This document shows positions 4,262-24,297 of a stretch of 38,557 nt of DNA, in pieces (position 1 is the first letter of the stretch; the number at the start of each line of letters is the position of its first letter). The position numbers and the translations under genes were made by a program. The notes under the pieces are model-generated. The model had not been told where the DNA came from. It made no database searches and was given only the letters and a program-made list of their open reading frames with translations. The DNA lies in assembly GCA_015232855.1 (NCBI GenBank), contig JADFYW010000030.1, positions 1 to 38,557 of the forward strand, given 5' to 3'. The stretch is from Fibrobacteria bacterium. Lineage in GTDB: Bacteria > Fibrobacterota > Fibrobacteria > UBA11236 > JADFYW01.

Positions 4262-4529
4262 AAAAGGCACAAAAAGGCGGTTGCACCAGACCAGCCTTCA
4301 TATATTAAAGATAGTTTGGGAGGCTGGCTGGAGAACCGCAACGTTAAAAGGCATTCCAAAAGATTTCCTAAAGACTATATGTTTCGACTTTAAAAAGATG
4401 AATTCAAATCCTTGAAATCACAACTCGTGATCTCAAGTTGGGGTGGACTTCGCTATTTTCCCAGATTTTTTACTAAATTAGGTGTTGCAATGCTTAAGCG
4501 TTTACCTCTTCAGGACCAAAAGAAAAATA

Positions 4530-5915
4530 ATGAAACAACAACCGCAAAAATTTGATGCAATTATTATAGGTGCCGGTATTTCGGGCCTGAGTGTGGCAGC
4601 TTATCTGTCTAAGGCCGGGAAGCGGGTTAAAGTGCTGGAGAAGGCAGACTGTGTGGGCGGTACTATGCAGACCATTCAGGAACAGGGATACTTAATTGAC
4701 TATGGGCCCAATACGGTGGTACTTAATAACACCCGGATTTTTGATATGATTTCTTTTGGTGGGCTTGATGAAGAGATGCTGCCCGCTGATGCCTGCGCCT
4801 CCAAACGTTTTGTAATAAGAAACGGACGTCCACAACCTCTCCCCACGAGTCCTCCCGCTTTTTTTATATCCGGACTTTATTCCCCTGGAGCAAAACTTCG
4901 TTTGCTACGGGAGCCTTTTATTGGAAAGGGGCCGGAAGGGGAAACGGTAGCTGATTTTGTAAAACGTCGGCTCGGAGATGAATTTTTTAATTATGCGGTG
5001 GATCCGTTTATTTCCGGTGTATATGCGGGTGACCCTCATCGGCTCTCTATACAATGGGCTGTCCCTAAAATACATATACTCGAAGAGAAATATGGCGGAC
5101 TCATCAAAGGGCTCTTTTTAGGCGCTAAAGAACGGAAAAAAAAGAGACTGGAAAGTGGCGAGTCTGATAAAACCACTGCCCGCATTTGTAATTTTCGAAA
5201 GGGCATCACGGCACTTCCTGAAGGAATGGCGGCGTCTTTGGGAGAAGCTGTCGAGCTTAATTGCGATATTGCTTCTATTATAAAAGGGGAGGACGGTTAT
5301 ACCGTTAGTTGTAAACAGTCGGGAGAAGAAAAGAACTTTACTGCAACTTCTCTGGTGTTGTCCGTACCCACCGACCCCCTTGATGAACTGATGACTTTGG
5401 TTGATTCGGACTATAAAGGCGGTATGGCTTCCATGCCTTACGCCCCCGTGGCCCAGGTGTTTTTGGGGTATAAGCGCTCCGACGTCACCCATGCCCTTGA
5501 TGGTTTTGGGTTTTTATGTCCTACAGTTGAAAAGCGTAAAATCCTTGGCGCCCTTATGAACGCCTCGATGTTTCCGGGCCGGGCACCTGAAGGGTATACC
5601 GGGCTCACCTGTTTTGTGGGGGGGATGCAACATCCGGAACATGCCGTCCTTGAAGAGGATAAGCTCATTGGCAATGCGCACAGCGAACTTCAGGAATTAC
5701 TTGGTATCCAAAAACCTCCTTCTTTTTCTCTGGTCAAGCGATACCCCAAAGCCATACCTCAGTATCACCTCGATTATCCGAAGTATCTCACAATCATAGA
5801 GTCTTTTGAAGCCAAACACCCTGGCCTCTATCTCAGCGGAAACTTCCGGGGTGGCATATCAATAGGGGACTGTATCTCCCAGGCTGCGGCCACCGCCGAT
5901 AAGATTATTGGATAG
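4530..5915 (+). CDS. hemG: Protoporphyrinogen oxidase (HemY/HemG type)
   Basis: FAD flavoprotein that oxidises protoporphyrinogen IX (or, in the coproporphyrin branch, coproporphyrinogen III) late in haem synthesis. It has an N-terminal dinucleotide-binding fold IIIGAGISGLSVAAYLSKAG at about residues 11-30, with the Glu of VLEKAD and the following VGG. Near the end LYLSGNFRGGISIGDCISQA forms the second FAD contact. The ATG at 4530 gives 461 aa, normal for the family; the frame is open to 4482, but the extra 16 residues are not flavoprotein-like. Acting beside a haem-rich respiratory operon makes sense, although it is on the opposite strand and converges with it. Confidence 0.88.
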   Translation: MKQQPQKFDAIIIGAGISGLSVAAYLSKAGKRVKVLEKADCVGGTMQTIQEQGYLIDYGPNTVVLNNTRIFDMISFGGLDEEMLPADACASKRFVIRNGRPQPLPTSPPAFFISGLYSPGAKLRLLREPFIGKGPEGETVADFVKRRLGDEFFNYAVDPFISGVYAGDPHRLSIQWAVPKIHILEEKYGGLIKGLFLGAKERKKKRLESGESDKTTARICNFRKGITALPEGMAASLGEAVELNCDIASIIKGEDGYTVSCKQSGEEKNFTATSLVLSVPTDPLDELMTLVDSDYKGGMASMPYAPVAQVFLGYKRSDVTHALDGFGFLCPTVEKRKILGALMNASMFPGRAPEGYTGLTCFVGGMQHPEHAVLEEDKLIGNAHSELQELLGIQKPPSFSLVKRYPKAIPQYHLDYPKYLTIIESFEAKHPGLYLSGNFRGGISIGDCISQAAATADKIIG

Positions 5916-6156: not shown

Positions 6157-6534
6157 CTACTTCTTTTTTACCGTTTGCACCTTTTCACCTTCTACCGGGT
6201 CCACAATATCCCTGAACTGGGTGTCGGTTAAGGTAACGATAAGAAAAGCCAACACAAAGAACCCACCCAGCAAGAAAGAAAGGATGTGGAGGGGCTTTTG
6301 GAGTTTGAGGCCCATAAAGCAAAAGGCGACGATGAACACCTGGACGAGTCCGATGCAAGCGACAATAACATCATTCAGAGGGCCCAGGTTCCAGATAAAA
6401 GGGCCGGGAAGATGGTTGTAGGTTTCAAAATCAACACGGCCGATAAGTATCTGCAGCAAGGCGAGGACAATAAGTACGAACATACCACCAAGGATGCTTG
6501 TACGGGAAAGTGTTTTTTGGCTTGAGCTGTTCAT
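6157..6534 (-). CDS. Cytochrome oxidase-like subunit IV
   Basis: Small membrane subunit of the caa3/CtaF-type subunit IV group (COX4-like, prokaryotic). The 125-aa product has three hydrophobic segments: GGMFVLIVLALLQILIG, a long one around NDVIVACIGLVQVFIVAFCFMGL, and ILSFLLGGFFVLAFLIVTLT. The frame is open to 6588, but those extra residues read through the end of the upstream gene. The ATG at 6534 (MNSSSQKT) leaves a 17-base gap to subunit III and is preferred. It is the last gene of the ACIII/oxidase-like operon. Subunit IV carries no cofactor in known oxidases. Confidence 0.75.
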   Translation of the reverse strand: MNSSSQKTLSRTSILGGMFVLIVLALLQILIGRVDFETYNHLPGPFIWNLGPLNDVIVACIGLVQVFIVAFCFMGLKLQKPLHILSFLLGGFFVLAFLIVTLTDTQFRDIVDPVEGEKVQTVKKK

Positions 6535-6551: not shown

Positions 6552-7184
6552 TCAGATTAAATAAAACAACGGAAAAAGTATAAACCAAACTAACACTCCC
6601 AGTTGCCAGTAACGGGCGAATAACTGAATAGGAGTATCATTTGTACTGCTATATTGGTATAACATGGCGCGCTTGGTAAGTCTGATTGCGATAAACAATC
6701 CAATAACCATATGTATGAGCAACAGGCCATTTATCAGGAAAAATATTGAACTATATTGGGAAGCTCCCTGGCCGGTGAAACCCGGGGCGCTAAAGAGACC
6801 GGGCCAGAGCAGGCCTTCTTTAATCAAACGGGAAAACTCATGGTATTTATTACCCAGAAAGAAAAAGCCGGCGATAAGGATTAAGGTTAAGTGCCCTACT
6901 AAAGAAAAATGGTTGTCTTTTTTTACCGCCCGCATGACCATGGCCGCAGCGTAAGTACTTAATAAGATATAAGCTGTTGCCCATACCGCCCCATTGTCTC
7001 CGATAAGCCGGGAGGCTTGGCGAAAGGCGTTCATGTTACCGAGTCTCAGGACGGTGTACAGGGTAAACAATGAGCCAAAGAGCACGGTCTCTGCTCCTAT
7101 TAAAAGCCAGATACCGAACATTGCGGATTCACGCTTTTGTGTTGGTTCCAGGCCAGACGATTGGGCAGCTTGTATGGCAGTCAT
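6552..7184 (-). CDS. Cytochrome oxidase-like subunit III, eroded
   Basis: Membrane subunit of the CoxC/CtaE family, 210 aa with about five hydrophobic segments. Recognisable features are FGIWLLIGAETVLFGSLF (the conserved Glu in helix III remains), YILLST, NGLLLIHMVIGL, and the YWQLGVLVWFILFPLFYL end. Compared with normal subunit III, the HG.H motif of helix V has become LLLIH, and the YWHFVD motif has become YWQLGV, so a conserved His and Asp are lost. The ATG overlaps the stop of subunit I (ATGA), implying coupled translation. Loss of these residues parallels the losses in subunits I and II. Confidence 0.85.
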   Translation of the reverse strand: MTAIQAAQSSGLEPTQKRESAMFGIWLLIGAETVLFGSLFTLYTVLRLGNMNAFRQASRLIGDNGAVWATAYILLSTYAAAMVMRAVKKDNHFSLVGHLTLILIAGFFFLGNKYHEFSRLIKEGLLWPGLFSAPGFTGQGASQYSSIFFLINGLLLIHMVIGLFIAIRLTKRAMLYQYSSTNDTPIQLFARYWQLGVLVWFILFPLFYLI

Positions 7185-8749
7185 GAGCTTGCCTCCGCAG
7201 TATGCATGGCAGGTGGTTCAGAAAAATTCTCTGTTTGGGGAGGAGTGGTGGCCTTCCACTCCAGGGAAGAAGCTCCCCAGGGGTTGTCCTCCGCCCGGGC
7301 ACCTTTTTTTACAGACATAATAAATAAAACAATAACACCAATAAGCCCGGCCACGGCAATTATCCCGCCTATGACGGACACTACCTGTGAAGCGGCCATC
7401 CCCTCAATTACCTGGTAATGCCCACGGGGAAGTCCTCTGGCACCAGCGATAAGCTGAGGAAGAAAGGTGATGTTTAAGCCGATAAAAAGTGTAAGGCCCG
7501 CTAACATGCTTAGGTTCTCGTTAATTTGTTTGCCACTCATTTTGGGCCACCAGTAATACAGACCGGCCAACAGGGAAAATAATACTGCGCCCAGTAAGTA
7601 GTGATTACTTCCTACGGCAAAAAGGCTTCCGCTTAATTGGCTATTGAGTGACATAATGTTGAGTGCCGCTGCTGCAAGTAATCCCACCGGGAACATGATA
7701 ATAGCGAATAGGGAAAAGACCAGGGCCGCGTTGAGTTGGATACTCCCCTTATACAAAGTTGCAAGCCAGCTTAAAATACAATTGAAGCAGATGGCCACGA
7801 GTATCATAAACAAAAAGGAAGTCATCGTTGAAGCAGCAATAGACTGGCCGGAAGAAGTAAGGTGCCCGCCCCAGCTGAGTATGCTTAAAAATGAAATAGC
7901 AAAGAAAGAAACGACTTGTCCGGTATAGCCAAATACGGGCCTGCGACTCATGACCGAAACCGTGTCTCCGATAATTCCAAAGGCAGGCAGTAGGGCCATA
8001 AATAAGGCGGGCCTGGCAAAGAACCAGAAGAGTTGCTGGTATAACAAAGCATCGCCTCCCAGTGCCGGGTCAAACAATCCAAGACCCATCATTTTCTCAA
8101 GCAGCAAAAGAGCAAAGGCCCCGCCCAGGAGAGGGGTTGCAAAAATCTGTATAATGGCGGCGGCTTGTAAAGACCAGGCAAATAAAGGTAAATCAGACCA
8201 GGCCAGACCTTGTGCGCGATGTAATTGAATGGTGACGGTGAAGTTGATGCCTGTAATAATAACAGAGACCCCCAGGGTAATTACTGCAAATACCATCATT
8301 ACAAATGGGAAGCCCTCGGTAAGGGATGCTGGCGCAAGAGCTGTCCAGCGTAATATGTTACCGGCGTGCATAGATAAAAATGCAAGTAAAAGACCTGCAA
8401 ACCAAAAGTAAAAGCTCAGGCGGTTAAGACGGGGGAAAGCGACATTAGAGGCGCCCAGTTGCAGCGGCAGGAAAAAATTCCCTAAAGACGCCGGAATAGC
8501 AGGCACCATAAAGAGGAATATCATAAAAAAACTATGAAAGCTGAGGGCCTGAAAAAAGGTCTGTTGTCCTTCTACCATAGCGTCATTGGTTAAAAGGTCA
8601 AGCCTCAGGCCAATGCCCGCAATAAGGGCCAGCACTGCAGCAACACCCATTCCCACCAGATACATAAGCGCGATGCGTTTACTGTCGACACTCTTTAGCC
8701 AGGAAGCGGCTCCTGATTCGCTCAGATAATTTGAAGTATTCTCACTCAT
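7181..8749 (-). CDS. Haem-copper oxidase subunit I homologue lacking the haem a3-CuB centre
   Basis: A 522-aa, 12-TM protein aligning along its whole length with aa3-type CoxA (NFFLPLQLGASNVAFPRLN, RRPVFGYTGQVV, SWLATLYKGSIQLN, YYWWPKMSGK). Both low-spin haem ligands are kept: H72 in helix II (FHSFFMIF) and H383 in helix X (SNHYL). The O2 site is gone. GHPEVY of helix VI reads ARPALF (246 is R, 250 is F). WAHH of helix VII reads WGGH (only H296 kept). The haem a3 ligand in VAHFHY is S381. The HD pair for Mg reads S373-G374, and the helix VIII Lys reads C324. The frame is open and coupled on both sides by ATGA overlaps. It is probably a membrane electron carrier, not an oxidase; that is inference. 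Confidence 0.9.
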   Translation of the reverse strand: MSENTSNYLSESGAASWLKSVDSKRIALMYLVGMGVAAVLALIAGIGLRLDLLTNDAMVEGQQTFFQALSFHSFFMIFLFMVPAIPASLGNFFLPLQLGASNVAFPRLNRLSFYFWFAGLLLAFLSMHAGNILRWTALAPASLTEGFPFVMMVFAVITLGVSVIITGINFTVTIQLHRAQGLAWSDLPLFAWSLQAAAIIQIFATPLLGGAFALLLLEKMMGLGLFDPALGGDALLYQQLFWFFARPALFMALLPAFGIIGDTVSVMSRRPVFGYTGQVVSFFAISFLSILSWGGHLTSSGQSIAASTMTSFLFMILVAICFNCILSWLATLYKGSIQLNAALVFSLFAIIMFPVGLLAAAALNIMSLNSQLSGSLFAVGSNHYLLGAVLFSLLAGLYYWWPKMSGKQINENLSMLAGLTLFIGLNITFLPQLIAGARGLPRGHYQVIEGMAASQVVSVIGGIIAVAGLIGVIVLFIMSVKKGARAEDNPWGASSLEWKATTPPQTENFSEPPAMHTAEASS

Positions 8750-9660
8750 TGCAAACTCTTCAGGTAGGCGATTAATGCGTTCATTTCTTTTGCTTTAAGG
8801 GGGTAGGCCAGCATAGTAGGCTTAAACCCGGCGGCTACTTCTACATTTGGCTCAAGTAAAGACCGAACCACATAAGCAGAATCAGCAATCACCGCTTCTG
8901 CGCTGTCAAGAGCACGTTCGGTCCCAAAAAAGCCTTTAAGGGTCGGGCCGACTATCTTGGAGCCGTCAACAGAATGGCAGGCGTTACAGCCTTGCTTCTC
9001 ATAGACATAGAGACCATATTCTTCTGGTGTTTTTCCAATACTCGGGTCAAATTTGACTTTGATCCAATGGGCGTAATCTTCTTCTGACAATACTTTTAAA
9101 ACTGCATCCGCAGCACCGCTCGTGTTATAAATGGCAAACAAACCCTCTTTGTTGGGGTTAAACCAGGTAACGGTTTTGCGGTTGGGTACGACCCCTTTAC
9201 CGACGCGCATTGAAGGAATAGAAATGCCATGCACATTATCAGCAGAACTCATTTCGAGTTTAACCGGAAGGTTCACAGGCACAATCAGGCTGTCCGGACT
9301 GGTGCCATCGAGATAATGGAACTGCCAGGCGGCAGAAGTTGCCGTTACACCGAGCACCAAAGCGGTATTAGGAGGAACCTGTAATTTTATAAACCCACGA
9401 AGCCCGTAACAGAAAAAGCCTGCTAAAACGATAAGTATAAGAGCCGTCCAACCCGTTTGTATCATGGCCTGTTTGCAGGGAGAGGACTCTGAAATTGTTT
9501 GAGCCTGGTTACGTCCTTTGATTACAAAGAAAATGGTAAGAAGCGAAATGATAACCACCAGAACCAGAGAAAACCCCAGGTAACCATAAAACGTACCATC
9601 CACGTATGTTGCCAGAGATGATGCCTTTTCGGCCAGCCAGAATGAATTGTTTGCGTTCAT
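8746..9660 (-). CDS. Cytochrome oxidase-like subunit II with cytochrome c domain, CuA lost
   Basis: Homologue of caa3-type subunit II, 304 aa. Two TM helices (about 24-48 and 70-90) precede a cupredoxin domain at about 98-200, then a class I cytochrome c domain with CNACH at 225-229 and a likely distal Met at M283 (FKPTML). The cupredoxin fold is clear: AWQFHYLDG, DNVHGISIPSMRVGKGVVPNR, and an SEEDYAHWI end. The first CuA histidine position is kept (H144), but the CAEYCGxxH..M loop is replaced by YNTSGAADAV, so both Cys and the later His and Met are missing. CuA cannot form. It ends in an ATGA overlap with subunit I. No good ribosome site is seen upstream of its ATG. Confidence 0.9.
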   Translation of the reverse strand: MNANNSFWLAEKASSLATYVDGTFYGYLGFSLVLVVIISLLTIFFVIKGRNQAQTISESSPCKQAMIQTGWTALILIVLAGFFCYGLRGFIKLQVPPNTALVLGVTATSAAWQFHYLDGTSPDSLIVPVNLPVKLEMSSADNVHGISIPSMRVGKGVVPNRKTVTWFNPNKEGLFAIYNTSGAADAVLKVLSEEDYAHWIKVKFDPSIGKTPEEYGLYVYEKQGCNACHSVDGSKIVGPTLKGFFGTERALDSAEAVIADSAYVVRSLLEPNVEVAAGFKPTMLAYPLKAKEMNALIAYLKSLQ

Positions 9661-9683
9661 AAACAGTTATTATTAACGGCACA

Positions 9684-9763
9684 TGTCATCGCCCGGCTTG
9701 ACCGGGCGATCCATCCCTGAATCGACGATCTGCTGGATTGCCCGGGCAAGCCGGGCAATGACA
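9684..9763. repeat. REP-like inverted repeat (ccgggc family)
   Basis: Two 30-base arms, tgtcat-cgcccggcttgacc and its near-complement ending gggcaatgaca, face each other with about 20 bases between. It sits inside the respiratory operon between the 102-aa gene and subunit II. Close copies occur at 19105-19184 and, as a single arm, at 35917-35946. Confidence 0.85.
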
Positions 9764-9798
9764 TTGTGTCTAGGTTAAATATCATATTAAAATCCAAT

Positions 9799-10107
9799 TT
9801 ATTTTGCTTCCTTAACAACCATATCCATCGCTTTTTTAACAGGAATCCGTATAGCGCCTTTTTCTTTGTCTGCCCAGTTATAAGAGGACAGCATCTTTTG
9901 TTCGTTTTGTTTGAGTTGGATTAAAGCACTCGTGCCCTGGGAGATTTCTTTCTTTTTCACCTCTTTAGATACATAACCCCGGGTGCCGTACACCGATATT
10001 AGGGAAAGGGCCAGTAGTAAAAGGGAAGCAGTAAAAATTATACCAAAACCTACACTCAGGACCTTCCCGGTTGCGTTCATCTGTGATAAAGTGTTTTTAA
10101 TCTCCAT
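9799..10107 (-). CDS. Small single-TM protein of the ACIII/oxidase locus
   Basis: 102 aa with one TM helix (about 18-42), a charged linker of Lys/Glu (47-54), and a C-terminal motif SYNWADKEKGAIRIPV at 75-90 followed by an amphipathic helix. I recall similar short anchored proteins with an SYGWVD..G..RIPI motif beside oxidase and ACIII genes in Planctomycetes/Verrucomicrobia-type genomes; that comparison is from memory. AGGTTAAT precedes the ATG, and it follows actF by ten bases, so it belongs to the operon. It may link ACIII with the oxidase-like module or help assembly; no function is proven. Confidence 0.7.
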   Translation of the reverse strand: MEIKNTLSQMNATGKVLSVGFGIIFTASLLLLALSLISVYGTRGYVSKEVKKKEISQGTSALIQLKQNEQKMLSSYNWADKEKGAIRIPVKKAMDMVVKEAK

Positions 10108-10117: not shown

Positions 10118-11290
10118 CTATGCGTTCGTGAATTTAAGGGATTCAGGCAGCCTCGGATCCTTTTGAGGTATCAGGGAGGATTTTTCCATTCTCTTTAAAA
10201 GGAAATAGAAAAACAGCCCGCCGATAAATAAAAAGCTTCCGACATCACCTAAGGTAATATGCATCCCCTTGGTATTAATATTCGGCATAATCAGCCAGTA
10301 GATATCAAGATAATTCGCAAAAAACAACCATACCGCTACAACAAACAGTGCGAGTAGATTGCGTTTCACGATGCGTGAAATGAAATAGAAAAAAGGAATT
10401 ACAAAATGAATGAAAATCATGGCTACACTTAAGGTCTTCCAGCTGCCTTCTGCACGAAGGTGAAAAAACGGAGTCTCTTCGCCCAAATTACCATACCAGA
10501 TTAAAAGGAACTGACAATAGGCGATATAGGCCCAGAAGGCATTAAACCCAAAAAGGAGTTTGCCGAGGTCATGGTAGTGTTCAACGGTAATTGCGTCTTT
10601 TACATAACCTTTTTTCTGCAGGAGGTAGGCTACCATAATAATCATTGAGTAAATAGCCACCGCAGAGCATGAAAAATAATACACCCCAAAGATGGTCGAA
10701 AACCAATGGGGATTCAGGCTCATTATCCAGTCAAAAGAAAAGAAGGTCTCAGAGGCAGCATATAATATAATCCCCAGTGTTGACCATTTTTGGAGTGACA
10801 GGGTAATTGCTTTATCACCAGATGTATCCTGGACAACAGATTTTTTGAGTAACCACCAGGCAAGTATCGCCCAGATAGCAAAAAACACGACCGTACGGCT
10901 AATAAAGAAAATAAGATTGAAATAACTGGCTTTTGCCTGCATGATAGGGTCATGGGCCACCGCTTCAGCATGGGACCAGTGAAAGAGTGTATGTATACCA
11001 ACAGCGAGGAGAGGAATAATTAAAACTCCCATCCACATAAGATTCGCAGTGATGTTCTCAGCGATCCGGCGGACAACCACGCTCCACCCTGCCCGGGTGA
11101 GGTGTTGTAAAAGTACAAAGGCTAAACCGCCGAGAGAAATGGAGAGAAAAAAGCAAAAGGCGGTGAGATACGAAAAGGCAAACTGGCGGGCGTCCATCAT
11201 AAGAGCCACCGCAGAAGCGGCCGCACCCAGCGCTGTAACTATCAGAAAGATAGCCTTACCCTTGCCTGCTGAAAACTTCGTCTGCTCCAT
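10118..11290 (-). CDS. actF: Alternative complex III subunit ActF
   Basis: Integral membrane subunit of alternative complex III, the quinol:cytochrome c (or HiPIP) oxidoreductase. The 390-aa protein has about ten hydrophobic helices and the pattern expected of ActF, a shortened relative of the NrfD/ActC fold: AGWSVVVRRIAENI, HTLFHWSH, FISRTVVFFAIWA, SFDWIMSLNPHWFSTIFGVYYF, and FNAFWAYIAYCQFLLIWYGN. It holds no cofactor in solved structures but forms proton half-channels with ActC. AGGAAGG precedes the ATG, and seven bases separate it from actE. Confidence 0.92.
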   Translation of the reverse strand: MEQTKFSAGKGKAIFLIVTALGAAASAVALMMDARQFAFSYLTAFCFFLSISLGGLAFVLLQHLTRAGWSVVVRRIAENITANLMWMGVLIIPLLAVGIHTLFHWSHAEAVAHDPIMQAKASYFNLIFFISRTVVFFAIWAILAWWLLKKSVVQDTSGDKAITLSLQKWSTLGIILYAASETFFSFDWIMSLNPHWFSTIFGVYYFSCSAVAIYSMIIMVAYLLQKKGYVKDAITVEHYHDLGKLLFGFNAFWAYIAYCQFLLIWYGNLGEETPFFHLRAEGSWKTLSVAMIFIHFVIPFFYFISRIVKRNLLALFVVAVWLFFANYLDIYWLIMPNINTKGMHITLGDVGSFLFIGGLFFYFLLKRMEKSSLIPQKDPRLPESLKFTNA

Positions 11291-11297: not shown

Positions 11298-11915
11298 CTA
11301 CTTCAACTGGCCTTGTTTATCGGGTGGTACATCCTGCAATGAAGCGTTGCCACTTTTTTGCAAGGCCCGCACATAGGCGACAATGGCCCAGCGGTCTGCG
11401 ACAGGTACTTGCGAGCTCATGGCCGGCATGGTACGCACGCCTCTGGTAATTACATCAAATATTTGCCCGTCCTTCATCCCGAGAATGCGGGGGTCGGTAT
11501 AACTGGGGGATGGGGTAAAGCCTTTTTGCTTCATGATGCTATTTCCATCACCCAGGGCCCCATGACATACCGTGCAGTAAATAGCAAAACGGTCTTGTCC
11601 GTGTGTCATTATTGCGGGCGTGATTTTTACAGGGTTGTTCACAAAAACAGAGTCGATAATACCATTATAATAAGCTTCATTTAAATTTAAATGCCCCCGG
11701 GGGACCGTTCCCGGGATAAGGGGGCGCATGGCCCTTCCGTCGGGATAGAAGGTGTTTTCGCCAAAGGCCCGGAATTTTTCCTGGTTATCCATATTTAACA
11801 CAAGATGTATGGGAGGTTTGGTTGACTTCTGGCCGCGACAACCAGAAAATACCAACACACTTAAAAGTGCACTCACAAGCACGACAAAACATTTATGGGT
11901 ATACCGGTTATTCAT
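11298..11915 (-). CDS. actE: Alternative complex III subunit ActE, monohaem cytochrome c lipoprotein
   Basis: Membrane-anchored cytochrome c of ACIII. The N-terminal signal ends in lipobox VFSGC (C26), so it is a lipoprotein on the periplasmic side. The conserved ActE stretch NMDNQEKFRAFGENTFYPDG and RPLIPGTVPRG is present. One haem site, CTVCH, is at 114-118, with a likely Met ligand in RTMPAM. 205 aa, typical. GAGGAA precedes the ATG, which directly follows the actD stop. It should pass electrons from ActA to the next carrier; here that could be the cytochrome domain of the oxidase-like subunit II. Confidence 0.92.
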   Translation of the reverse strand: MNNRYTHKCFVVLVSALLSVLVFSGCRGQKSTKPPIHLVLNMDNQEKFRAFGENTFYPDGRAMRPLIPGTVPRGHLNLNEAYYNGIIDSVFVNNPVKITPAIMTHGQDRFAIYCTVCHGALGDGNSIMKQKGFTPSPSYTDPRILGMKDGQIFDVITRGVRTMPAMSSQVPVADRWAIVAYVRALQKSGNASLQDVPPDKQGQLK

Positions 11916-12461
11916 TTATTCCTCTATAACCTCTATGTTTTTCCCACCGATTTCTTCTAAAAAACGTCTGGTTTCTTTAGCGTTAAACTGCGGGTCTTTT
12001 GCTTCTATGCTAATAAAAAAAGCGTCATTTGAAAAACGTAAAAAGTTTTTACTGGAAAAGAGCGCATGGTATAAAAGCGGTAGTTTATTAAGAGCAAACA
12101 TACCAAGGAGAGCGCTGAAAGCAGCAAATAATATTGCGCCTTCGAAGGTCCAGATACCAAAAGAGGGGTAATCATTAAAAGGTTTACCGGCAATAACCAG
12201 GGGATAGGCAATTTTACTTGACCAGTACTGGAGATAAAAAGCACTCAGCATACCCGTCATACTACAGATAAACACAAAAATTCCAAGCTTTGAATCTTTT
12301 AAGCCCATGGCCCTGTCCATGCCGTGAACAGGAAAGGGGCTGTGGGTGTCCCATTTTTTATAGCCTTTATCCCGAACCTTTTCTGCTGCCTTAAGCAAAT
12401 CACCGGGATTCGCGAATTCAGCTAAAACGCCGAAGAGTTTGCTGTTTTTCTGCTCAGCCAT
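11916..12461 (-). CDS. actD: Alternative complex III subunit ActD (DUF3341)
   Basis: 181 aa with the DUF3341 layout: a soluble N-terminal alpha/beta domain (FGVLAEFANPGDLLKAAEKVRDKGYKKWDTHSPFPVHGMD), two TM helices (about 58-80 and 105-128), and a second soluble domain ending in FLEEIGGKNIEVIEE. ActD is a structural subunit without cofactors. The start codon overlaps the actC stop (TAATG), with a strong GGAGGTGAG ribosome site inside the end of actC. Confidence 0.92.
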   Translation of the reverse strand: MAEQKNSKLFGVLAEFANPGDLLKAAEKVRDKGYKKWDTHSPFPVHGMDRAMGLKDSKLGIFVFICSMTGMLSAFYLQYWSSKIAYPLVIAGKPFNDYPSFGIWTFEGAILFAAFSALLGMFALNKLPLLYHALFSSKNFLRFSNDAFFISIEAKDPQFNAKETRRFLEEIGGKNIEVIEE

Positions 12462-13855
12462 TAATGCTCACCTCCGTGACTCCCGTGATGGGGGTCCGCT
12501 TCAGGCATAACGCCTTTAACTTCAGAGAGCGCAATGGCTGGTCCGAAGCGAAGGAAAAGAAGAAACAGGGTGAAAAATAATCCGAAACTGCCTGCGAAAG
12601 TACATACATCAACCCAGCTGGCCCGGTAATAATCCCAGCTGGAAGGGAGAAAGTCTGCATGCAAAGTGATTACAATCACAAAGCGTTCAAACCACATACC
12701 GATGTTGATAAAAATAGTGATAACAAAAATAATCCCCATATGGGTCCGGCATTTCTTAAACCAAAAAAGCTGGGGGATAACGACATTACAAATAATCATG
12801 GACGCATAAGCCCACCAGTAAGGGCCCGTTGCCCGGTTCCAGAAGGCAAAGCGTTCAAAGGGGTTGGCGCTATACCAGGCGATAAAGAGCTCCATCATAT
12901 AGGCGTACCCCACTATGGACCCGGTGGTAAGCATAATTTTAGCCATATTTTCCATATGACGGCGGGTCACGATATGTTTGTATCCGTAAATTTCTCTGGC
13001 GATAATCATCAATGTTCCCACTAATCCGAAACCAGAAAAGACAGCGCCGGTTACAAAATAAGGGGGAAGAATAGTGGTGTGCCAGCCCGGAAGGATGGAA
13101 GCGGAAAAGTCAAAACTAACGACACTGTGCACAGAAACTACCAGGGGTGTGGCAACAGCGGCAAGAATGAGGTATGCGCGTTCATAGTGTTGCCAATGCC
13201 GGTTAGCACCACGCCAGCCCATTGAAAAGAGTCCGTAAATAGTTTTTCTTACTTTGTTCGTGGCCCGGTCGCGTAAAGTGGCCAGGTCGGGGATAAGGCC
13301 CATGTACCAGAAAAGAGTTGATACCATAGCGTACGTGCCGATTGCGGCAACATCCCAGAGCAGGGGAGAACGGAAATTCGGCCACATACCCATTTGATTG
13401 GGAAGCGGTACCATGTAATAGCCCATCCAGACACGACCGATGTGAATAATCGGATAAAGCCCTGCGCAACAAACTGCAAATACCGTCATGGTTTCTGCAA
13501 AACGGTTAATACCCGTACGCCACTTTTGGCGGAATAAAAAGAGAATAGCAGAAATGAGTGTGCCGGCGTGACCAATACCGATCCACCAGACAAAGTTCAC
13601 AATGGCCCATCCCCAGGCGTTAGGTGAATTGAGGCCCCACACTCCGGTACCTTCCCAGACAAGGTAACCAACCATACTGACGTAAAGTGTAAAACCCGTA
13701 AAAGCAACAAATAAAGAAATCAACCACCAGGAGGGTGTTTTAACAAGAGGCACCTCTGCTGCACGAACAACGATTTCCGTCACATCGGAAAAAGTCTTGC
13801 CGCCTTCTACCAGGGGCTGCCGTACTGCGGGATCTTCTACCATATGAGCCGACAT
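12461..13855 (-). CDS. actC: Alternative complex III subunit ActC (NrfD-like)
   Basis: Quinol-oxidising membrane subunit, 464 aa with about ten TM helices of the NrfD/PsrC fold. Diagnostic stretches include [21 protein letters not shown] (the GHAGT motif near the quinol site), [34 protein letters not shown], and [21 protein letters not shown]. It partners with the Fe-S domain of ActB and passes electrons from quinol toward ActA. Its ATG overlaps the actB stop by one base (TGATG), with GGGGAG as ribosome site. Nothing looks damaged. Confidence 0.94.
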
Positions 13856-16800
13856 CAGTGCTCCCCACGCCCGGTTTGGTGTGAATCAATTTTTTCGGGA
13901 TGCTTGCTTGCTTTGGCCATTTTAGGATTAAGGTTGGTGACCCGGGAAAGAAAAGATGTGCGTGGCCTGATGTTGAGTTCAGCCAGCAGTTCGTAATTTC
14001 GCTTATTGTGCTTAAGTTTTGTGACTTTTGCGTTTTTATCGTTAATATCGCCAAAGGTGATTGCACCTGATGGGCAGGTCTGCTGACAGGCCGGGACAAT
14101 GTTTCCGTCCGGAACCATCTCTTCCCCTTTATTTTTATGGGCGATACGCTGTTCATTAATACGCTGTACGCAGTAAGAACATTTTTCCATTACACCCCTG
14201 AAGCGGACCGTCACATCGGGGTTCTGGGCCATCTTTTGGGTGTTTACATATTTATTCGTCAGGTTATAATAGTTGAACCGACGTACCTTATAAGGGCAGT
14301 TATTGGCACAATAGCGTGTACCCACACAGCGGTTATAAGCCATATCATTAAGGCCGTCGCTGGAATGCGCCGTGGCCGCAACCGGGCATACCGCTTCGCA
14401 GGGGGCCATTTCGCATTGTGCGCAGCCTATTCCCTGAAACACGACCTGGGGATTATCAAGATCGGTTCCTGCAAAGTAACGATCAATTCTAAGCCAGTGC
14501 ATTTCTCTGTTGAGTGCTACCTGGTCTTTACCTACGATAGGAATGTTATTTTCTGCCTGGCAGGCAACCACACAAGAGCCGCAACCCGTGCATTTGTTTA
14601 AATCTATTACCATGCCCCATTGCTGGCCCTTGTCGTATTGATGTTCGTCCCAAAGACTCTCATAGGCGCCATGGCCCTGATGAGATTTATGATGGACATT
14701 TACATCTTCAACCCGTACAATATCGCGGCCCTCCATAGACCAGTGTTCCTGTACGTTGGCAAGGTCATATTTCTTCCCGGTATTTTTGAGGCTTGCGTTA
14801 TAAGCGGCACTTAACGAAGTACTGTTGCGTAAGGGATACACATTTACACCGGCGCCCGACCCAATGGTGCCCGCTTTGCTACGCCCGTAACCGAGGTTCA
14901 AAAGAATAGTGTCATCAGCTATGCCTGGCAAAATAGAAACCGGAAGTTCAAGTTTTTTATCACCACTTTTGATTTCAATAACAGGACGGTCCCATTGTCC
15001 AAGAGGAATGCCTTTGTTGTCTTTTAAAAGTATCGCTTTGCGGAGGCCATATTTTTCTGCTGTTTTTAAGCTCATAACCGCAGCATTATCCCAGGCAAGA
15101 CGGGTCATGGGGTCTGGGAATTCCTGCAACCAGCCGTTACTTGCAAAACGCCCGTCATAGAGGGATAAGTCTTCTTTAAATAAGAGCTCAAGTTCGCCGG
15201 CCTTGGTGGCTTTAAGAGATTCTATTTGAGTTTGGCAGCAAGTCACAAGAGTACCGTAAGAAACACCAGCGGCCATATTGTAACTATCAGAACCCTTCAT
15301 CAGGCCGTCATGTATCCAGGTCCGCCATTTTTTATCAAAGCCTTCTGCGCCTTCCCGGGATTTCCAGTAGTTGCGGACAATATCATAACCCTTTTTAAAA
15401 GGATACCCACTGAGTCCGGCCAGTATCTCCAGCGCAGATTGGGCCTGGTATAACGGGGCTATTAACGGCTGGGCGATATTGGTAACACCATTAAAGGCAG
15501 CGCCATCGGACCATTCTTCAAGGTAATGGGTTTTGGGAAGGTGCCAGGTGCTAAGCTCTGCGGTTTCGTCAACCATACATCCCGCATGGATAACATTTTT
15601 TACTTTTTTCAATTGAGTGACAAAATCAAAGTCTGCCGGGGCAGTATACACCGGGTTAACACCGAGCATTACCAGGGTGGTTACCTTTTCGTCTGCCATG
15701 TCTTTTACAAGCAGCTCAAGTGAGTTTACTTCTCCAGCTGTTTCCGCATTAAAACCTGCGGTGGATGAGCGCTTATAATGAACTGTGCGGCCAATGCAGC
15801 CAAGGGCCATGTTAATAATATGGGCCAATACATGCAGGGCAGGTTCCTGGTCTTTGCCCACACAAATAAGACTCTGTTGGGGCTGTTCTAAAATATCCTG
15901 GCAGACGGACGCTATCCATTTACCGCAGTCTAAATCTTGCGCGGTTGCTGCGCCCTCGGAAATAAGGCCCTTAAATGCGTTAGGGACACCAGCAGGAAGT
16001 GCTACACCGAGTTTATTGAAAACATAATCAGAGATGAGCCAGAGAGACTTACGGACCTGGCTTGGCTTAAGCCTGAGTCGATGGTCAGCTCTTGCGCCGG
16101 TCAAAGAAAAATCAGATTCGACTATATAAAGGCGGTTTACCCGTCCGTTGTCGGGGTCGCGTTTTTCATTAAAACCTTTTGCGTTTATCAGAGCGCCTGT
16201 TTCCCGGCTGAGGAAATCACAATCTATGGCAAGTATCCGTTCTGCTTTGGTAAAATTATAATGGGCGTCCACTACCTGCCCGGTAGCGGCCTTTAAACCT
16301 TTTACTGCGTTATCGCGGTTAACGGGCTCCCAGCTGTGCCATTTGGCGCGGGGTAAAGCATTTTGCATATGCTTTTTAACAGCGGCCAGAGAGGGCGAAG
16401 TAATATACTCGCTCAGAATAGAAAGTCCTTCTCCGGCATTTGCCTTGTGGGTCGCCATTAAGAGTTCCATCTCTTTCTGGAAGACTCCCCAGGTTGATGG
16501 CTTCCCTTGTTTGAGAGGAGTTTTACTGCGTTCAGGATCATATAAATTAAGCAGAGATGCCTGGTGAAATACGGAAGCCGCACCCAGGCTTGACGGATGA
16601 AGAGCATTTCCTTCAATTTTGGTGGGACGACCCTCGTGACTCTCAACGACCAGGCCGACTACTTCCTGACCTAATGACATGGAAGTGGCGAAATTGAGGG
16701 GTTTACCCGGTACCAGATATTCGGGGCTATTATTATAAGGAAGAATTTTTTCTTCGGGCCGTCTTATTGATTTGCAACCACTGAGCCCGGCTAAGGCCAT

Positions 16801-17037
16801 GGAAGAGGCCATCAGGCCCAGAAAAGAACGTCTGTTTACGGGGTCAAGTAATTCGGAAGCCCTTTCCGGAAACTCGTCTTTTACGAACTTCTTATAGGCT
16901 GGGCTTTCCGCAAACTCATCCAGGCTCTTCCAGAAATGTTTTTTGCCCTTATTTTTAAGCGAATCAAAAAACCTTCGGGAAGCCCCGTTTCCGTATGTGT
17001 TGTTTTCGTTATTATTTAGCGATGACATGCGGAACAA
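13855..17037 (-). CDS. actB: Alternative complex III subunit ActB (molybdopterin-like plus Fe-S)
   Basis: 1060-aa periplasmic subunit fusing an inactive molybdopterin-oxidoreductase-like domain (about 90-780) to an NrfC/PsrB-like ferredoxin domain (812-990). The Tat/lipoprotein signal [21 protein letters not shown] is at 68-88, with the twin Arg and a Cys. Fe-S cysteines are [11 protein letters not shown] (816-826), [13 protein letters not shown] (872-884), [11 protein letters not shown] (904-914), CSYC (953-956) and CQQTC (984-988), fitting the usual three 4Fe-4S plus one 3Fe-4S. The frame opens with a TTG at 17037, but the ATG at 17028 may be the true start. Both overlap actA. The subunit appears fully functional. 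Confidence 0.94.
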
Positions 17038-17654
17038 TCTATCCTTGTGTTGATATGATAGCTTTCTAATAGCTTTTTGCCTTGTTCAATTTGATTTGGC
17101 ATGGATGTGAGAGCAGCGGTAATAAGGTGTTTTTCTCTGAGAACTTTTTCCGGGGCCTTGTGACAATCAAGACACCACGACATACTGAGAGATTGTTCCT
17201 GCCGGACTTCGGCCATCTGATCAACTCTCCCATGGCAGGAAACGCAACCCACCCCTTTATTAATATGTACGCTGTGATCAAAGTAGGCGTATTCGGGCAG
17301 TTTGTGGACCCGCTTCCAGGGAACAGGCATTCCTGATTCCTGATATTGTTTGAGCTTCATAATTTCAGGTGAAGCCGGAAGGATAAGATTGTGGCAGCCC
17401 ATGCAAACATCCGAAGAAGGAACACCGGCTACAGGGGAGACTTCAGCTCCGGTATGGCAATAACGGCAATCCATACCCAAATCCGTCACATGTAGTTTAT
17501 GGCTGTATTTAATGGGTTGTACGGGTTGATAACCAACAGTGAGATGATTGTCTGATAACCAATACCAGATGACAAATATACTTGCAAGGCTACCTATAAT
17601 TACAGTGACTACTGCAACCGGGCCAAGAAGGTTTGTCCATCTGGGAAAAATCAT
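17016..17654 (-). CDS. actA: Alternative complex III subunit ActA, pentahaem cytochrome c
   Basis: First gene of the operon, 212 aa. One N-terminal TM anchor (about 9-31) is followed by a periplasmic domain with five CxxCH haem sites at 63-67, 84-88, 137-141, 161-165 and 207-211, plus many extra His as axial ligands (YSHKLH, FDHSVH). Five haems is the known number for ActA. It takes electrons from the ActB Fe-S chain. GAGAGGAAA lies six bases before the ATG. The last haem motif ends one residue before the stop, within the overlap with actB. Confidence 0.94.
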   Translation of the reverse strand: MIFPRWTNLLGPVAVVTVIIGSLASIFVIWYWLSDNHLTVGYQPVQPIKYSHKLHVTDLGMDCRYCHTGAEVSPVAGVPSSDVCMGCHNLILPASPEIMKLKQYQESGMPVPWKRVHKLPEYAYFDHSVHINKGVGCVSCHGRVDQMAEVRQEQSLSMSWCLDCHKAPEKVLREKHLITAALTSMPNQIEQGKKLLESYHINTRIDCSACHR

Positions 17655-19104: not shown

Positions 19105-19184
19105 CGTCATCGCCGGGCTTGACCGGGCGATCCATCCCAAAGTCGAGATTTTGATGGATTGCCCGGTCATGCCGGGCAATGACA
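19105..19184. repeat. REP-like inverted repeat (ccgggc family), second copy
   Basis: Two 30-base inverted arms (19105-19134 and 19155-19184) match the element at 9684-9763, with the same spacing of about 20 bases. It sits between nadA and its upstream neighbour. Confidence 0.85.
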
Positions 19185-19597
19185 TGTTCAATATTCTGAT
19201 TACTAATGCTTCCTTTTGAACAAATATTAATTGCTACTATCCTCCTGTACTCAAATATTACCCGACAACTTAAGCTGCAAAGTAAAACATAATAAAGTGG
19301 CAATGATTTGCCATAAAATCAGGAATCCCAGCTACGCATGCCTCCGGCCAGGTCTTTTGCCTGTTAAGAGTTGCAGGCTTTTAGGATTCTTTTTTAACAG
19401 GGATCGAAGTTCAGAAGCCATAATTTTTGGCGCAGAGCCAAAGGGGAGCAGCCAGAACATTCGGGCCAGTTTTGTTTTGAAAGCAATTGATTCATTTGTC
19501 ATAAGCAAAAACCTTTTCAATGTTTTAACCCAATACTCCAACACTCCAGTACTCCATTCTACCCACAGATTCTGCTGAGGAATCAGAAATTTAATTC
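19185..19597. other. Intergenic region with ctccaacactcc repeat
   Basis: 413 bases with no supported gene. A short run of actcc words (atactccaacactccagtac) lies at about 19532-19560 and resembles another dispersed intergenic repeat class. A 70-codon minus-strand frame at 19332-19544 starts inside this repeat and is not credible. Confidence 0.5.
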
Positions 19598-20215: not shown

Positions 20216-23200
20216 TTACTCGCAGGTTTGAGTGGATTGCCAATCGGCTTGTCTGACTGTTAGCCAGGTCTTAATTTCTTCAGAAAGTAAACAAAGCTTA
20301 TTATTGTTAACTAAAAAATAATCCGTCTGAAAATTCACAATAGAATCCGGCAAGCTTGTTAATTCATTGAATCCTACAGAAAAATCACAGAAATTACTTA
20401 AATTTCCAATTGAAGATGGTAATGAAGTCAACTTATTTCTATGAGCAAAAAATTCTTTTAAATTTTTTAAAAACCCTATTGAACTAGGTAATGTCTTGAG
20501 CTGATTATCATATACCCATAAATACTTTAAACTGTCCAATTCACCAATATCAGCGGGTAAACTTTCTAACTGATTATTTGTTGCCATTAAACTTGTAAGC
20601 TTTTTACATAACCTAATATTATTATCAATATGCACAATTTGATTATTTGTCACATATAGCCCTTCTAAACTATTAAGCCTGCCTATTGTTGAAGGTATCA
20701 CTCTAATTAAATTTCTACCTATGAAAAGGCTTATTAAACTCTTGAAATTACCAGGTAATATGTTAATCGTATCAATTTGATTATAATCTAGCAACAAACT
20801 TTTTAAAGAATCAATTTCACCAAGCCAATATGGAAAAGAAGATAAACTATTTTCACTTAAATCACATTTTCTAAGGAGCTTTAAATTATTTAAACTGGCA
20901 GGGAGTTTTGTTAATTTGTTTTTTCCCAAAAACAATTCAGTTAAAGAACTTAGGTTCCCGATTTCTTCAGGTAAAGATGTGATGTTTAAAGAACTTAAAG
21001 AAAGAAGTTTCAAATATTTTAATTCTCCTATTGTGCTAGGAATGCTTGAAATAGGTAGATTGTTGATTTCAAAAGATAAGGCTTTTCCGTCTTCCCAATT
21101 TCCTACAAAAGCATTAACTTCACGGTCCTGTAATCCAATGGAATCTAAAATCCCTCTAATTATCAGAGAGTCGCTTTTCTCAAAATAAGATTGTAAACTT
21201 ACATCTCCTTCTTTTAAAACCACTTTAGTAGAAGAGATGTTTTTGTTTTCAATAAATGCAGTACCTGAGCTTGTTTGCCATTCTCTAAAAAAATAGGGAT
21301 AATTTGCCGTAGCACTAATATCAATCGTATCTCCGTAGTTCACTATTGTACTCGCCGGCACGGCTCCACCTTCACTAGGGGAAGAAGTAAAAGTCAGATT
21401 GAATTGAATAATTTCATAGGCAACATTAAGTTCAAAATTTTCTTGAACATTTATAAAATCATGATATGCGTTTTCCTTGGCGGTAACATTTGGAAATCCG
21501 TTAATTTTTACTTCTTTTATTTTATACCCCTCTTTAGGAATAAAGCTCACACGTCTGGATAGTCCAATTTCTACCACAACATTGCTTTCGGGTGGGTCCA
21601 TTACCCCTAAGCCGGAATCTATTATAGTAGAGATGGTAAATGTCTTCTTCTTAAAAAATGCCTTTACCGCGATATTACCTTCAGTCACTTCTATCCAGGG
21701 ATCTGTTTTTGTTGAATCCGTACTTAAAACATATTTTATGACACCTTTGTACCCCTCTGATGTTACTAATTCCCAGCGATCTAGCTCGTACCCCTTCTCA
21801 TTATCGGGGTTCGCTTTTAATTGAACTGGGACACCCCAAAAAACTTCCTGCTTAACAAGCTCTGGTGCTCCACCCTCGTCTGGGTCTTTCAATAGAATAA
21901 CCTCTAATGGAATCCGATCAAACTCTGCTGTGGCATTGATGTTTGCGACCATATTAAATACTAATGGATTTACGGTATCCAAAACCAAATCAAAACCTGA
22001 CCAGCTTTTAAAACGCCAACCGTCTAACGGAACCGCGGTTACGGTCACTTCATCTTGAAATAAATGTGTATTTGTGTCCGGAGAAATAATAACAGACCCC
22101 TGTAGAGAGTCTTTAACTGTCATTTCTAAAGAGAAAGCCTGTTTTTTAAATGTTACTTCTATTTTGTGGTTTGCTGCTACCTTAGAAAAGGTATACTTTT
22201 TGTTGTTATCTGCTACACTATTGCTATCCCCATCAATCAGAAGTTTTTCAACTAAATAACCTGTATCCGGTTCAAAAGTGAATTCCATGTCCCTGGTGCT
22301 ATCAACTTTGACAATTCCACCAATACCTGAAGGCTCAATTTTTCCACCTTCTCCCACTATAATCTCAATAGCAAAAGTGCCTCGTTTACGAACAGAAATT
22401 TGAAACTGATTTGAGCTATCACTTAGCTCCGGCTGATTAATATTTTTTATTATCAAATAATAGGTTCCGTCATTGGTTAATTTTGCAGTATCAATTTGTA
22501 AAACGGAATCTTCAGATATTTCCTCTGTTCCTTTCCTCCACGCATAAGTCAGAAAATCTGTATGAGCTATTACTGGCCTTACCTCAACCGAAGATCCTTC
22601 TACTATCAAAATATTTTCGATTTTGGATATAATTGGTGGACCATGTACAACAGACACTTTAAATGTATTAGTCACTTGTTCAGAATTTTGTCTTACTTCT
22701 ACGTGGTATACACCGGTATCCTGAAAACCAACATTAGTTATCTTTAAAGAGTCAGTTTCTGAAAGGATGCTATCCCCATAAAACCATTTATATGATAAGG
22801 AATCTTCCTTGTTAAGGGTAACGTTAAGTGTAGTATCATTGCCATAATATATCTGTAAATCTGCTAAACCTCTTACGATTTTTAACGGTGCTTTCGGGTC
22901 TGTCACATATATAACAGCATCACTCTTTATAGTATCATTCTGAGTATACACGATAACTAGAACCTGGGTACTATCCATTACAGAAGAAACCGTATCAATC
23001 AAATATCCATTTGTTGTAACACCTTCCAACAATTGATTATTGTGATACCAGGCATATTGGACATCGTTATTATCAACTTCCACTTCAAACTGAAGCGATT
23101 CACTCTTCAATACAACGGTATCTTTTAAACCTTTAACCAGTCTTATTGAATTCTTTTCAGATGGATAATCGGTATTCCCGGATAGACTGTCCTCAACAGA

Positions 23201-23581
23201 ATCAGATGCCGCTAATAATTCTTGTACTTCATCAAAATTCCCGGGGCCATCTTTCGTCACCTTGGAATTTTTTGCGTAAAGGACTTTTCCTTCTTTGGAT
23301 CCTATTATAAGCAAGGTGAAATTATCAGACAACTGATCTGGATAATAAAGTTTTTCCGGAAAAATATCCCCATCTTTCCATTCATAGATTGTAACAGTAT
23401 CTGTGCTATTTTCGCTTATTCCTAAAAATCGAATTTCATCATACTCTTCTATATTAAAATTTTCCGTGTTTAAATTTAAATAGCGCTTTTGCTCCGGTTC
23501 TTTAAAAATACAAGAAAATAAATAAAAGCAAAAAGCGAAAAATAGTATGAGTTTAATCTTATGTAAGACACTGTTTACCAT
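20216..23581 (-). CDS. Surface lipoprotein with Ig-like, InlB-type B repeats and leucine-rich repeats
   Basis: About 1121 aa from the ATG at 23581. The frame is open to 23662, but only this start gives a proper signal, KLILFFAFCFYLFSC (lipid Cys at 24). Numbering from the longer frame: three Ig-like domains at about 150-425 (ending GVYHVEV, GTYYLII), four or five divergent B repeats of the InlB type at 430-855 (GEGGKIEPSG, AVPLDGWRFKSWSG, FIPKEGYKIKEVKING), then about ten 23-residue leucine-rich repeats at 860-1115 (NKLTKLPASLNNLKLL, NQLESLPADIGELDSL). It is probably exposed at the cell surface for binding; the ligand is unknown. It is AT-richer than the respiratory operon. Confidence 0.8.
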   Translation of the reverse strand: MVNSVLHKIKLILFFAFCFYLFSCIFKEPEQKRYLNLNTENFNIEEYDEIRFLGISENSTDTVTIYEWKDGDIFPEKLYYPDQLSDNFTLLIIGSKEGKVLYAKNSKVTKDGPGNFDEVQELLAASDSVEDSLSGNTDYPSEKNSIRLVKGLKDTVVLKSESLQFEVEVDNNDVQYAWYHNNQLLEGVTTNGYLIDTVSSVMDSTQVLVIVYTQNDTIKSDAVIYVTDPKAPLKIVRGLADLQIYYGNDTTLNVTLNKEDSLSYKWFYGDSILSETDSLKITNVGFQDTGVYHVEVRQNSEQVTNTFKVSVVHGPPIISKIENILIVEGSSVEVRPVIAHTDFLTYAWRKGTEEISEDSVLQIDTAKLTNDGTYYLIIKNINQPELSDSSNQFQISVRKRGTFAIEIIVGEGGKIEPSGIGGIVKVDSTRDMEFTFEPDTGYLVEKLLIDGDSNSVADNNKKYTFSKVAANHKIEVTFKKQAFSLEMTVKDSLQGSVIISPDTNTHLFQDEVTVTAVPLDGWRFKSWSGFDLVLDTVNPLVFNMVANINATAEFDRIPLEVILLKDPDEGGAPELVKQEVFWGVPVQLKANPDNEKGYELDRWELVTSEGYKGVIKYVLSTDSTKTDPWIEVTEGNIAVKAFFKKKTFTISTIIDSGLGVMDPPESNVVVEIGLSRRVSFIPKEGYKIKEVKINGFPNVTAKENAYHDFINVQENFELNVAYEIIQFNLTFTSSPSEGGAVPASTIVNYGDTIDISATANYPYFFREWQTSSGTAFIENKNISSTKVVLKEGDVSLQSYFEKSDSLIIRGILDSIGLQDREVNAFVGNWEDGKALSFEINNLPISSIPSTIGELKYLKLLSLSSLNITSLPEEIGNLSSLTELFLGKNKLTKLPASLNNLKLLRKCDLSENSLSSFPYWLGEIDSLKSLLLDYNQIDTINILPGNFKSLISLFIGRNLIRVIPSTIGRLNSLEGLYVTNNQIVHIDNNIRLCKKLTSLMATNNQLESLPADIGELDSLKYLWVYDNQLKTLPSSIGFLKNLKEFFAHRNKLTSLPSSIGNLSNFCDFSVGFNELTSLPDSIVNFQTDYFLVNNNKLCLLSEEIKTWLTVRQADWQSTQTCE

Positions 23582-23691
23582 ATCTAAACCATTTTCTAAA
23601 AAAAGAAAAATTCTCTTTGGAGAAGGTAGAAAAGGGGGTAACGAATGGGGAGGGTTCAGCAATTTTTCTTTCTATTTTCAGAAATGCATAG

Positions 23692-24282
23692 TTACAGATC
23701 AACGCTCCCCACATTCTTCTCTCCTCTATCCTGGCTTAAAAGAAGGAATATAGTTACAGCTGTAGCAACAGCAAGGCAACCTAAGGTCCAACCTATCCAT
23801 GCTGCGTTTTTTTTCGGTTGCTTTTTTGACTGTACAGGTACAGTTTCTGTTACGTTTGAAAGAGCCGAAGAACTTTTGGTGGAAATAGATTTAGGCCTTC
23901 CATATTCGTCATATTGTTGTGTATACTGCTTCCGTCGTTTATACTCATTTTTTACATCTTGGAACATCAGATTTATTTTCTCTGACACGTACATATCTAG
24001 CAATTCAATATTGGGAGCAAGTTTAAGTAACTGATACATATAACTTTCCGCTTTATCCTTCGTATTTGCATCTGTGGCATAAACAACCCCTAAATACTTG
24101 AACATAAAAATCTTGTCCTCTTGAGAAGAATTTGGATTTGTCTTACGATAAGTTTCTAATTCTGTCCTAATTTTCTCAAACTCCCCTTCTAAATAAGCGG
24201 CTTTGATTTGAGCTTGGTTAATGGGTATTGCATGAACTATGCAGACCCAATTAAAAAGAATGGTAAAAAAAATAATCTTCAT
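23692..24282 (-). CDS. Secreted or anchored TPR-like protein with C-terminal TM
   Basis: About 196 aa from the ATG at 24282 (MKIIFFTILFNWVCIVHAIP, a signal peptide); the longer frame to 24339 runs over a terminator and is not used. An alpha-helical region of TPR-like character follows (AAYLEGEFEKIRTELETYRKTNPN, FKYLGVVYATDANTKDKAESYMYQLLKLAPN), then a basic Ser/Lys linker and a TM helix near the C-terminus (AAWIGWTLGCLAVATAVTIFLLL). This layout resembles small envelope-stress or assembly proteins, but I do not recognise the family. It lies between two large lipoproteins. Confidence 0.65.
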   Translation of the reverse strand: MKIIFFTILFNWVCIVHAIPINQAQIKAAYLEGEFEKIRTELETYRKTNPNSSQEDKIFMFKYLGVVYATDANTKDKAESYMYQLLKLAPNIELLDMYVSEKINLMFQDVKNEYKRRKQYTQQYDEYGRPKSISTKSSSALSNVTETVPVQSKKQPKKNAAWIGWTLGCLAVATAVTIFLLLSQDRGEKNVGSVDL

Positions 24283-24297
24283 TTGATTCAAAATAAT

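Follow-up and report, generated by a model that had tools for sequence, protein, structure and literature searches.

An alternative complex III operon of a Fibrobacteria genome whose oxidase half is predicted to lack copper sites and the oxygen-binding centre

We describe an operon in which the electron-delivering half, alternative complex III (ACIII), is intact and the oxygen-consuming half is fully encoded, yet without copper sites and the oxygen-binding haem ligand, an arrangement which suggests that an old oxidase has been retained as a part with another job. The operon lies on contig JADFYW010000030.1 of a Fibrobacteria metagenome-assembled genome (GCA_015232855.1; 350 contigs, 80% complete), the whole analyzed stretch of 38,557 nucleotides being referred to below as the window. 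In the reading that we favor, and to which we give about even credence, the oxidase half would be a copper-free, oxygen-inert appendage of ACIII, serving as scaffold or dock, with electrons leaving through the haem c of CoxB. Its basis in the sequence comprises the loss of CuA, CuB, the haem a3 ligand and proton-channel residues, the absence of an operon Sco gene, the intact Act genes and haem c motif, and reading frames that are open at deep divergence.

Results

The gene at 7181–8749 is read from the minus strand (522 aa, ATG start, no internal stop; the plus-strand reading contains many stops), and Pfam, phmmer and fold all identify its product as subunit I of an A-type oxidase. It covers the entire Pfam COX1 profile (280 bits, cut-off 34.8), its top phmmer match is 2yev_A (E 5e-79), and its score against TIGR02891 (CtaD_CoxA), 421.5 bits, is below the equivalog cut-off of 670.75. 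An AF2 model (pLDDT 87.2, pTM 0.90) returned aa3 oxidases as top Foldseek matches, with TM-scores on the query of 0.88–0.93 (50 oxidase structures listed). The original prediction, made from the letters of this DNA, of a full-length, in-frame CoxA homologue with a retained oxidase fold was thus borne out.

The gene belongs to an operon (Table 1) with the order actABCDEF-small-coxBACD, as in related operons, and with 4-base overlaps of CoxB/CoxA and CoxA/CoxC. The actABCDEF set with its haem and iron-sulphur motifs identifies the first half as alternative complex III; no Pfam family was matched by ActF at E 0.001. The open reading frame of CoxD is listed from 6588 with a TTG start, the first ATG being at 6534.

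Table 1. Features of the act-cox operon and of the place of the missing Sco gene (conserved-position counts for ActA and ActB leave out loci L115 and L015).
Feature	Coordinates	Strand	Remarks
CoxD homologue	6157..6534	-	COX4_pro 27.9 bits, slightly below the cut-off of 28.9
CoxC homologue (subunit III)	6552..7184	-	rapid evolution (28% identity to order-mates); 4-base overlap of its start with the end of CoxA
CoxA homologue, oxidase subunit I fold	7181..8749	-	lacks haem a3 ligand, two of three CuB ligands, cross-link Tyr, K-/D-channel residues; H72/H383, R49, R442 kept
CoxB homologue	8746..9660	-	CuA site without its two cysteines, the second His and the Met; H144 (first His) and fused cytochrome c kept
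Sco slot of related operons	9661..9798	.	no Sco here; mostly a dispersed repeat of this genome
Small membrane protein	9799..10107	-	matched at the same place in several related act-cox operons
ActF	10118..11290	-	identified from its position in the operon and from matches to relatives
ActE monohaem cytochrome c	11298..11915	-	CXXCH present
ActD	11916..12461	-	PF11821, 201 bits
ActC, NrfD-like subunit	12461..13855	-	quinol site by analogy with known ACIII
ActB, iron-sulphur subunit	13855..17037	-	181/188 conserved positions kept
ActA pentahaem cytochrome c	17016..17654	-	five CXXCH; 32/33 conserved positions kept

Alignments by phmmer to T. thermophilus caa3 and R. sphaeroides aa3 and by MAFFT to related loci bore out every residue call of the original prediction: the low-spin haem ligands H72 and H383 are kept, the ligand histidines are replaced by R246 and G295 at CuB (H296 is kept) and by S381 at haem a3, and F250, C324 and S373-G374 stand in place of the cross-link Tyr, the K-channel Lys and the His-Asp pair of the Mg site. 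Two further losses, D102N at the D-channel entry and R443G at the second arginine of the haem-propionate pair, were added by this analysis, and R49, M76, W135 and R442 are retained. The names given to the sites (CuB, a3, K and D channel, propionate Arg) are those of R. sphaeroides and bovine numbering, transferred through the alignments.

The eight key positions (H72, H246, Y250, H295, H296, K324, H381, H383) read HHYHHKHH in 95 of the 97 distinct CoxA frames other than that of the window, a subset of known CoxA assembled from the best 80 of at least 547 loci in genome contigs and from searches of relatives and of the phylum; on this comparison, chance is excluded as an explanation for the ligand losses. 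The two exceptions are locus L042 (HQTDHVHH) and a 128-aa end fragment without these positions. With its ligands missing, the predicted protein could not act as a heme-copper oxygen reductase by the known mechanism.

Across the protein, 65 of 90 near-invariant positions are kept; each of 93 canonical proteins, when left out in its turn, keeps at least 90% (L042, window copies, frames shorter than 480 aa, loci L098 and above, and duplicates being removed from this set). The claim that the losses are clustered at one site held in part: 20 of the 25 lost positions fall in residues 231–447 (Fisher p 0.004, the region having been picked post hoc), but the enrichment around six anchor residues is weak once the anchors are removed (p 0.05 to 0.34), the anchors having been picked mostly for being lost, so that p-values including them are biased. 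Retention is high in the low-spin region (residues 45–110 and 383–410; 22 of 24 near-invariant positions, p 0.016, region also picked post hoc). The two low-spin histidines are kept as predicted, which is weak evidence by itself: at a background retention of 72%, two of two is expected about half the time and is no proof of haem retention. A low-spin haem may be retained in the CoxA homologue and, since CtaA gave no match in the 80%-complete genome, both haem a and haem b are possible, for its canonical oxidase as well.

The changes extend beyond CoxA, the one gene in which the original prediction had seen them: CoxB has lost its CuA site, the operon is without Sco, and CoxB and CoxC have likewise evolved faster. 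The CuA region of CoxB reads NTSGAAD, where order-mates have CTQYCGTNHSYM or close variants, and the fused cytochrome c domain is intact (CNACH at 225–229, Met283). CoxB keeps 35 of 53 conserved positions, and ActE 25 of 28, its CXXCH included (both counts leave out L115 and L015). Only 41 of 115 CoxC positions near-identical in six order-mates are kept, some of the losses reflecting an N-terminal stretch absent from the window protein.

A Sco gene was found upstream of cox in 22 of the 23 related loci compared, a chosen part of those fetched (L115–L124 and 13 of L003–L082, with no act genes seen in L005 and L122, and L009 and L013 lying outside the act-gene comparison). In the window none was found with the order-mate Sco (PF02630, 39.6 bits) and the second-operon Sco (22.0 bits, slightly below cut-off) as queries, and the second operon accounts for the sole Sco match of the 80%-complete genome (23.3 bits). 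The gap between the small protein gene and CoxB is 138 bases. The exceptional locus, L120, encodes a canonical CoxA; thus, absence of Sco alone is no proof of copper loss. Loss of both the copper sites and their chaperone is a coherent change, with a parallel in the joint absence of CuA and SCO from bo3 oxidases (PMC6431628, available part). The dispersed repeat occupying the missing-Sco place (9676–9790) is an element of ~80 bp, palindromic as judged from its matches in both orientations; its 69 match rows in the genome represent dozens of copies, many rows being two orientations of one place, and another copy lies at 19106–19185 of the window.

A comparison with act-cox operons of other phyla (six order-mate loci, 5 to 8 loci of other phyla) indicates that only the oxidase half has changed and that the Act half is intact. 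Mean identities to other phyla (window/order-mates) are 42.3/43.9 for ActB, 58.6/59.8 for ActC, 39.4/37.2 for ActD, 36.4/37.1 for ActE and 39.0/37.8 for ActF, vs. 39.3/57.4 for CoxA, 30.5/42.1 for CoxB and 26.9/40.8 for CoxC; ActA is intermediate (45.1/51.3), i.e., slightly faster than in order-mates. These identities and the conserved positions rule out decay of the whole operon. In the ActB/C/D/F tree the window is sister to six same-order operons (SH-aLRT 100) with an end branch of 0.62, and in the CoxA/B/C tree it stands beside the same order (support 93, not starred) on an end branch of 3.92 substitutions per site, so long that its exact place is unsure; the CoxA-only tree (end branch 2.69) leaves the placement without resolution. 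Derivation of the Cox half from the lineage of the second operon was also considered, and the topology that unites the window with L115 and L015 is disfavored (p-AU 0.018).

All four Cox frames are open despite this divergence. When order-mate genes were mutated without selection to the same identity, CoxA acquired a mean of 12.8 stops, and stop-free runs numbered 0/500 for CoxA, 0/500 for CoxB and 2/500 for CoxC in a simulation that is lenient in allowing substitutions without indels. GC3 of CoxA, CoxB and CoxC (0.46–0.49) is inside the range of the Act genes (0.41–0.51), and that of CoxD (0.58) is above it. The original prediction had named homologues in the same operon with all ligands kept as the sign of a recent pseudogene. 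Part of this was found: all ten same-order genomes returned encode a CoxA with all ligands and the fetched operons share the gene order; yet a recent pseudogene is ruled out by divergence this deep with open frames. Selection probably acted on the Cox genes through most of the branch, judging from the open frames, GC3 and gene overlaps.

The search proposed earlier for homologues sharing S381/R246/G295 returned none with the same residue set, either among the readable CoxA of 126 class and 167 phylum genomes (the window's own included) or among the best 80 of at least 547 relatives in genome contigs. The latter were kept from at least 598 pattern matches, at least 547 of which encoded a relative, in a scan by exact peptide patterns from P0001, so that distant ligandless forms may escape it. 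One phylum match (L114) is a fragment without the key CoxA positions.

The same genome encodes a second operon (G000:C111, locus L115) of the type ACIII-Sco-cox, with canonical CoxA ligands and its own ACIII and Sco, as well as a bd oxidase subunit I. The CoxA of L115 groups with Planctomycetota L015 and Desulfobacula L014/L037, and its Act genes group with L015. Two order-mate genomes (G006, G007; loci L120, L121) each have two CoxA/CoxB sets, the second adjoining act genes; the second CoxA copies have T at the first Mg-site residue and keep the haem and CuB ligands, and the second set of G006 (L120) lacks Sco.

Discussion

We infer that the cox genes of the window are expressed and that their products probably still assemble on ACIII, with CoxA, CoxC and CoxD forming an inert membrane scaffold or docking surface in which CoxA perhaps still carries one low-spin haem. 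Menaquinol electrons would pass from ActC/B/A to ActE and on to the haem c of CoxB, and would exit at that point toward a soluble carrier or some other reductase, bypassing CuA, haem a and oxygen; reduction of oxygen itself would fall to the other ACIII-caa3 and the bd oxidase of this genome. In R. marinus, the acceptor for ActE is the cytochrome c domain of the caa3 subunit IIc, within a supercomplex seen at 20 A (PMC5928083, available part). In the window, this dock or outlet is favored because the electron-entry haem c is kept and the downstream centres, the low-spin haem perhaps excepted, are lost. That ACIII passes menaquinol electrons to a non-oxygen partner, a copper-free, oxygen-inert module with one membrane haem and one haem c serving electron routing and not the reduction of oxygen or NO, is a more tentative proposal, which we rate slightly below an even chance.

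Several observations count against the favored reading. The arrangement is known from a single 80%-complete MAG with no second homologue found to share its losses, and the acceleration of CoxA, CoxB and CoxC is explained equally well by relaxed constraint and by a new role. In F. johnsoniae, CoxC contacts ACIII (PMC8361435, available part), and the strong change of CoxC in the window argues against simple retention of old contacts. In F. johnsoniae, ActE is also dispensable for electron transfer to the oxidase (PMC8552683, available part), so that a path from ActE to CoxB is not universal.

The docking module or outlet ranks before three alternatives. Next to it stands drift, which we consider rather unlikely: the second ACIII-caa3 would have taken over oxygen, and the old Cox half would be a passenger under relaxed constraint on its way to eventual loss, with nothing but weak selection on folding or operon coupling keeping its frames open. 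The joint acceleration of the three subunits, losses reaching past the active site, a Sco gene already gone with its slot taken by a repeat, and a canonical CoxA and CoxB elsewhere in the genome are all as such a passenger would have them; yet at 3.9 substitutions per site four frames and the 4-base overlaps of CoxB/CoxA/CoxC persist, GC3 of the three genes is that of their Act neighbors (that of CoxD is not), and the haem c motif is kept along with most near-invariant CoxA positions (65/90).

A new redox enzyme, in which CoxA with a single low-spin haem (plus the CoxB haem c) would serve transmembrane or quinone electron transfer, is improbable in our estimate. The six retained residues H72, H383, R49, M76, W135 and R442 and the well-kept low-spin region speak for it, but no new cofactor motif was seen, CuA as the normal relay from haem c to the low-spin haem is gone, and the two histidines alone are not significant. 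It is close to the original interpretation of selection for a new role as a one-haem membrane protein of oxidase shape, which stands as regards the predicted inability to reduce oxygen by the known mechanism, the retained fold and the exclusion of a recent pseudogene, and gives way in that the change is wider than CoxA and the clustering weak. A chimaeric contig, base errors or misalignment would be conceivable for an incomplete MAG in so many contigs, but we regard an artefact as very improbable, given that both halves of the operon fall with the same order in the trees (Act at support 100, Cox at 93, not starred), the frames are open, the CuA, CuB and Sco losses are coherent, and the alignment is anchored by invariant neighbors.

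Compared with known ACIII-caa3 (act-sco-cox) operons, e.g., that of Rhodothermus marinus, the window is alike in gene order, the CoxB-fused cytochrome c and the ACIII cofactor motifs. The supercomplex described in PMC5928083 (available part) reduces oxygen, whereas the window, where the two halves are joined in gene order, lacks CuA, CuB, the haem a3 ligand and Sco. With A-type heme-copper oxygen reductases (CtaD/CoxA) it shares the fold, Pfam COX1 and low-spin ligands, but not the catalytic-centre and proton-channel residues. The bo3 quinol oxidases retain CuB and haem o3 and reduce oxygen. According to the available part of PMC6431628, SCO genes are found in ACIII-fused clusters, and SCO is missing from bo3 oxidases, which have lost CuA from subunit II; the window resembles them in both absences, but loses the CuB/high-spin site too and keeps haem c. 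The same source, in that part, describes a "Degenerate B family oxidase", compared here by description only, which is likewise an oxidase relative possibly without oxygen reduction, but of the B-family. The unusual cbb3 of Nitrospina gracilis (PMC3578206, available part) also has altered residues around the CuB centre; there the change is the replacement of a conserved Trp next to the centre, in what the authors continue to treat as an oxidase, whereas in the window the ligand histidines are gone. No description of a CoxA of this kind was found in a mostly open-access literature judged largely by titles and abstract openings.

If real and expressed, the operon would indicate that a heme-copper oxidase scaffold can outlast its active site and copper, and would serve as a natural experiment on the role of the oxidase half in the ACIII supercomplex beyond oxygen reduction. 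When domain hits lead to the annotation "cytochrome c oxidase subunit I", an oxidase can be ascribed to an organism whose gene lacks the oxygen-binding centre.

Additional Observations

An independently altered oxidase was seen in an Alphaproteobacteria MAG (UBA1301; L042:9023-11578), whose CoxA has Gln and Asp for CuB histidines, Thr for the Tyr and Val for the K-channel Lys and keeps the low-spin and a3 histidines, and whose CuA site has Tyr and Gln for two histidines and Leu for Met; its tree sister, L074, has a canonical CoxA. These replacements raise the question of whether L042 could be an oxidase with haems and without copper.

Adjoining the operon of the window on the opposite strand is a protoporphyrinogen oxidase gene (4482–5915, plus strand; TIGR00562, 289 bits). 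Two very large proteins, possibly surface proteins, are encoded at 20216–29246 on the minus strand and carry Ig-like, InlB-type and leucine-rich, or carboxypeptidase-regulatory domains. The Fibrobacter succinogenes major domain TIGR02145 was found in 55 of 61 class genomes searched and in 1 of 14 control genomes, with 38 copies in the window's genome, none in six of the ten same-order genomes and one or two in the other four.
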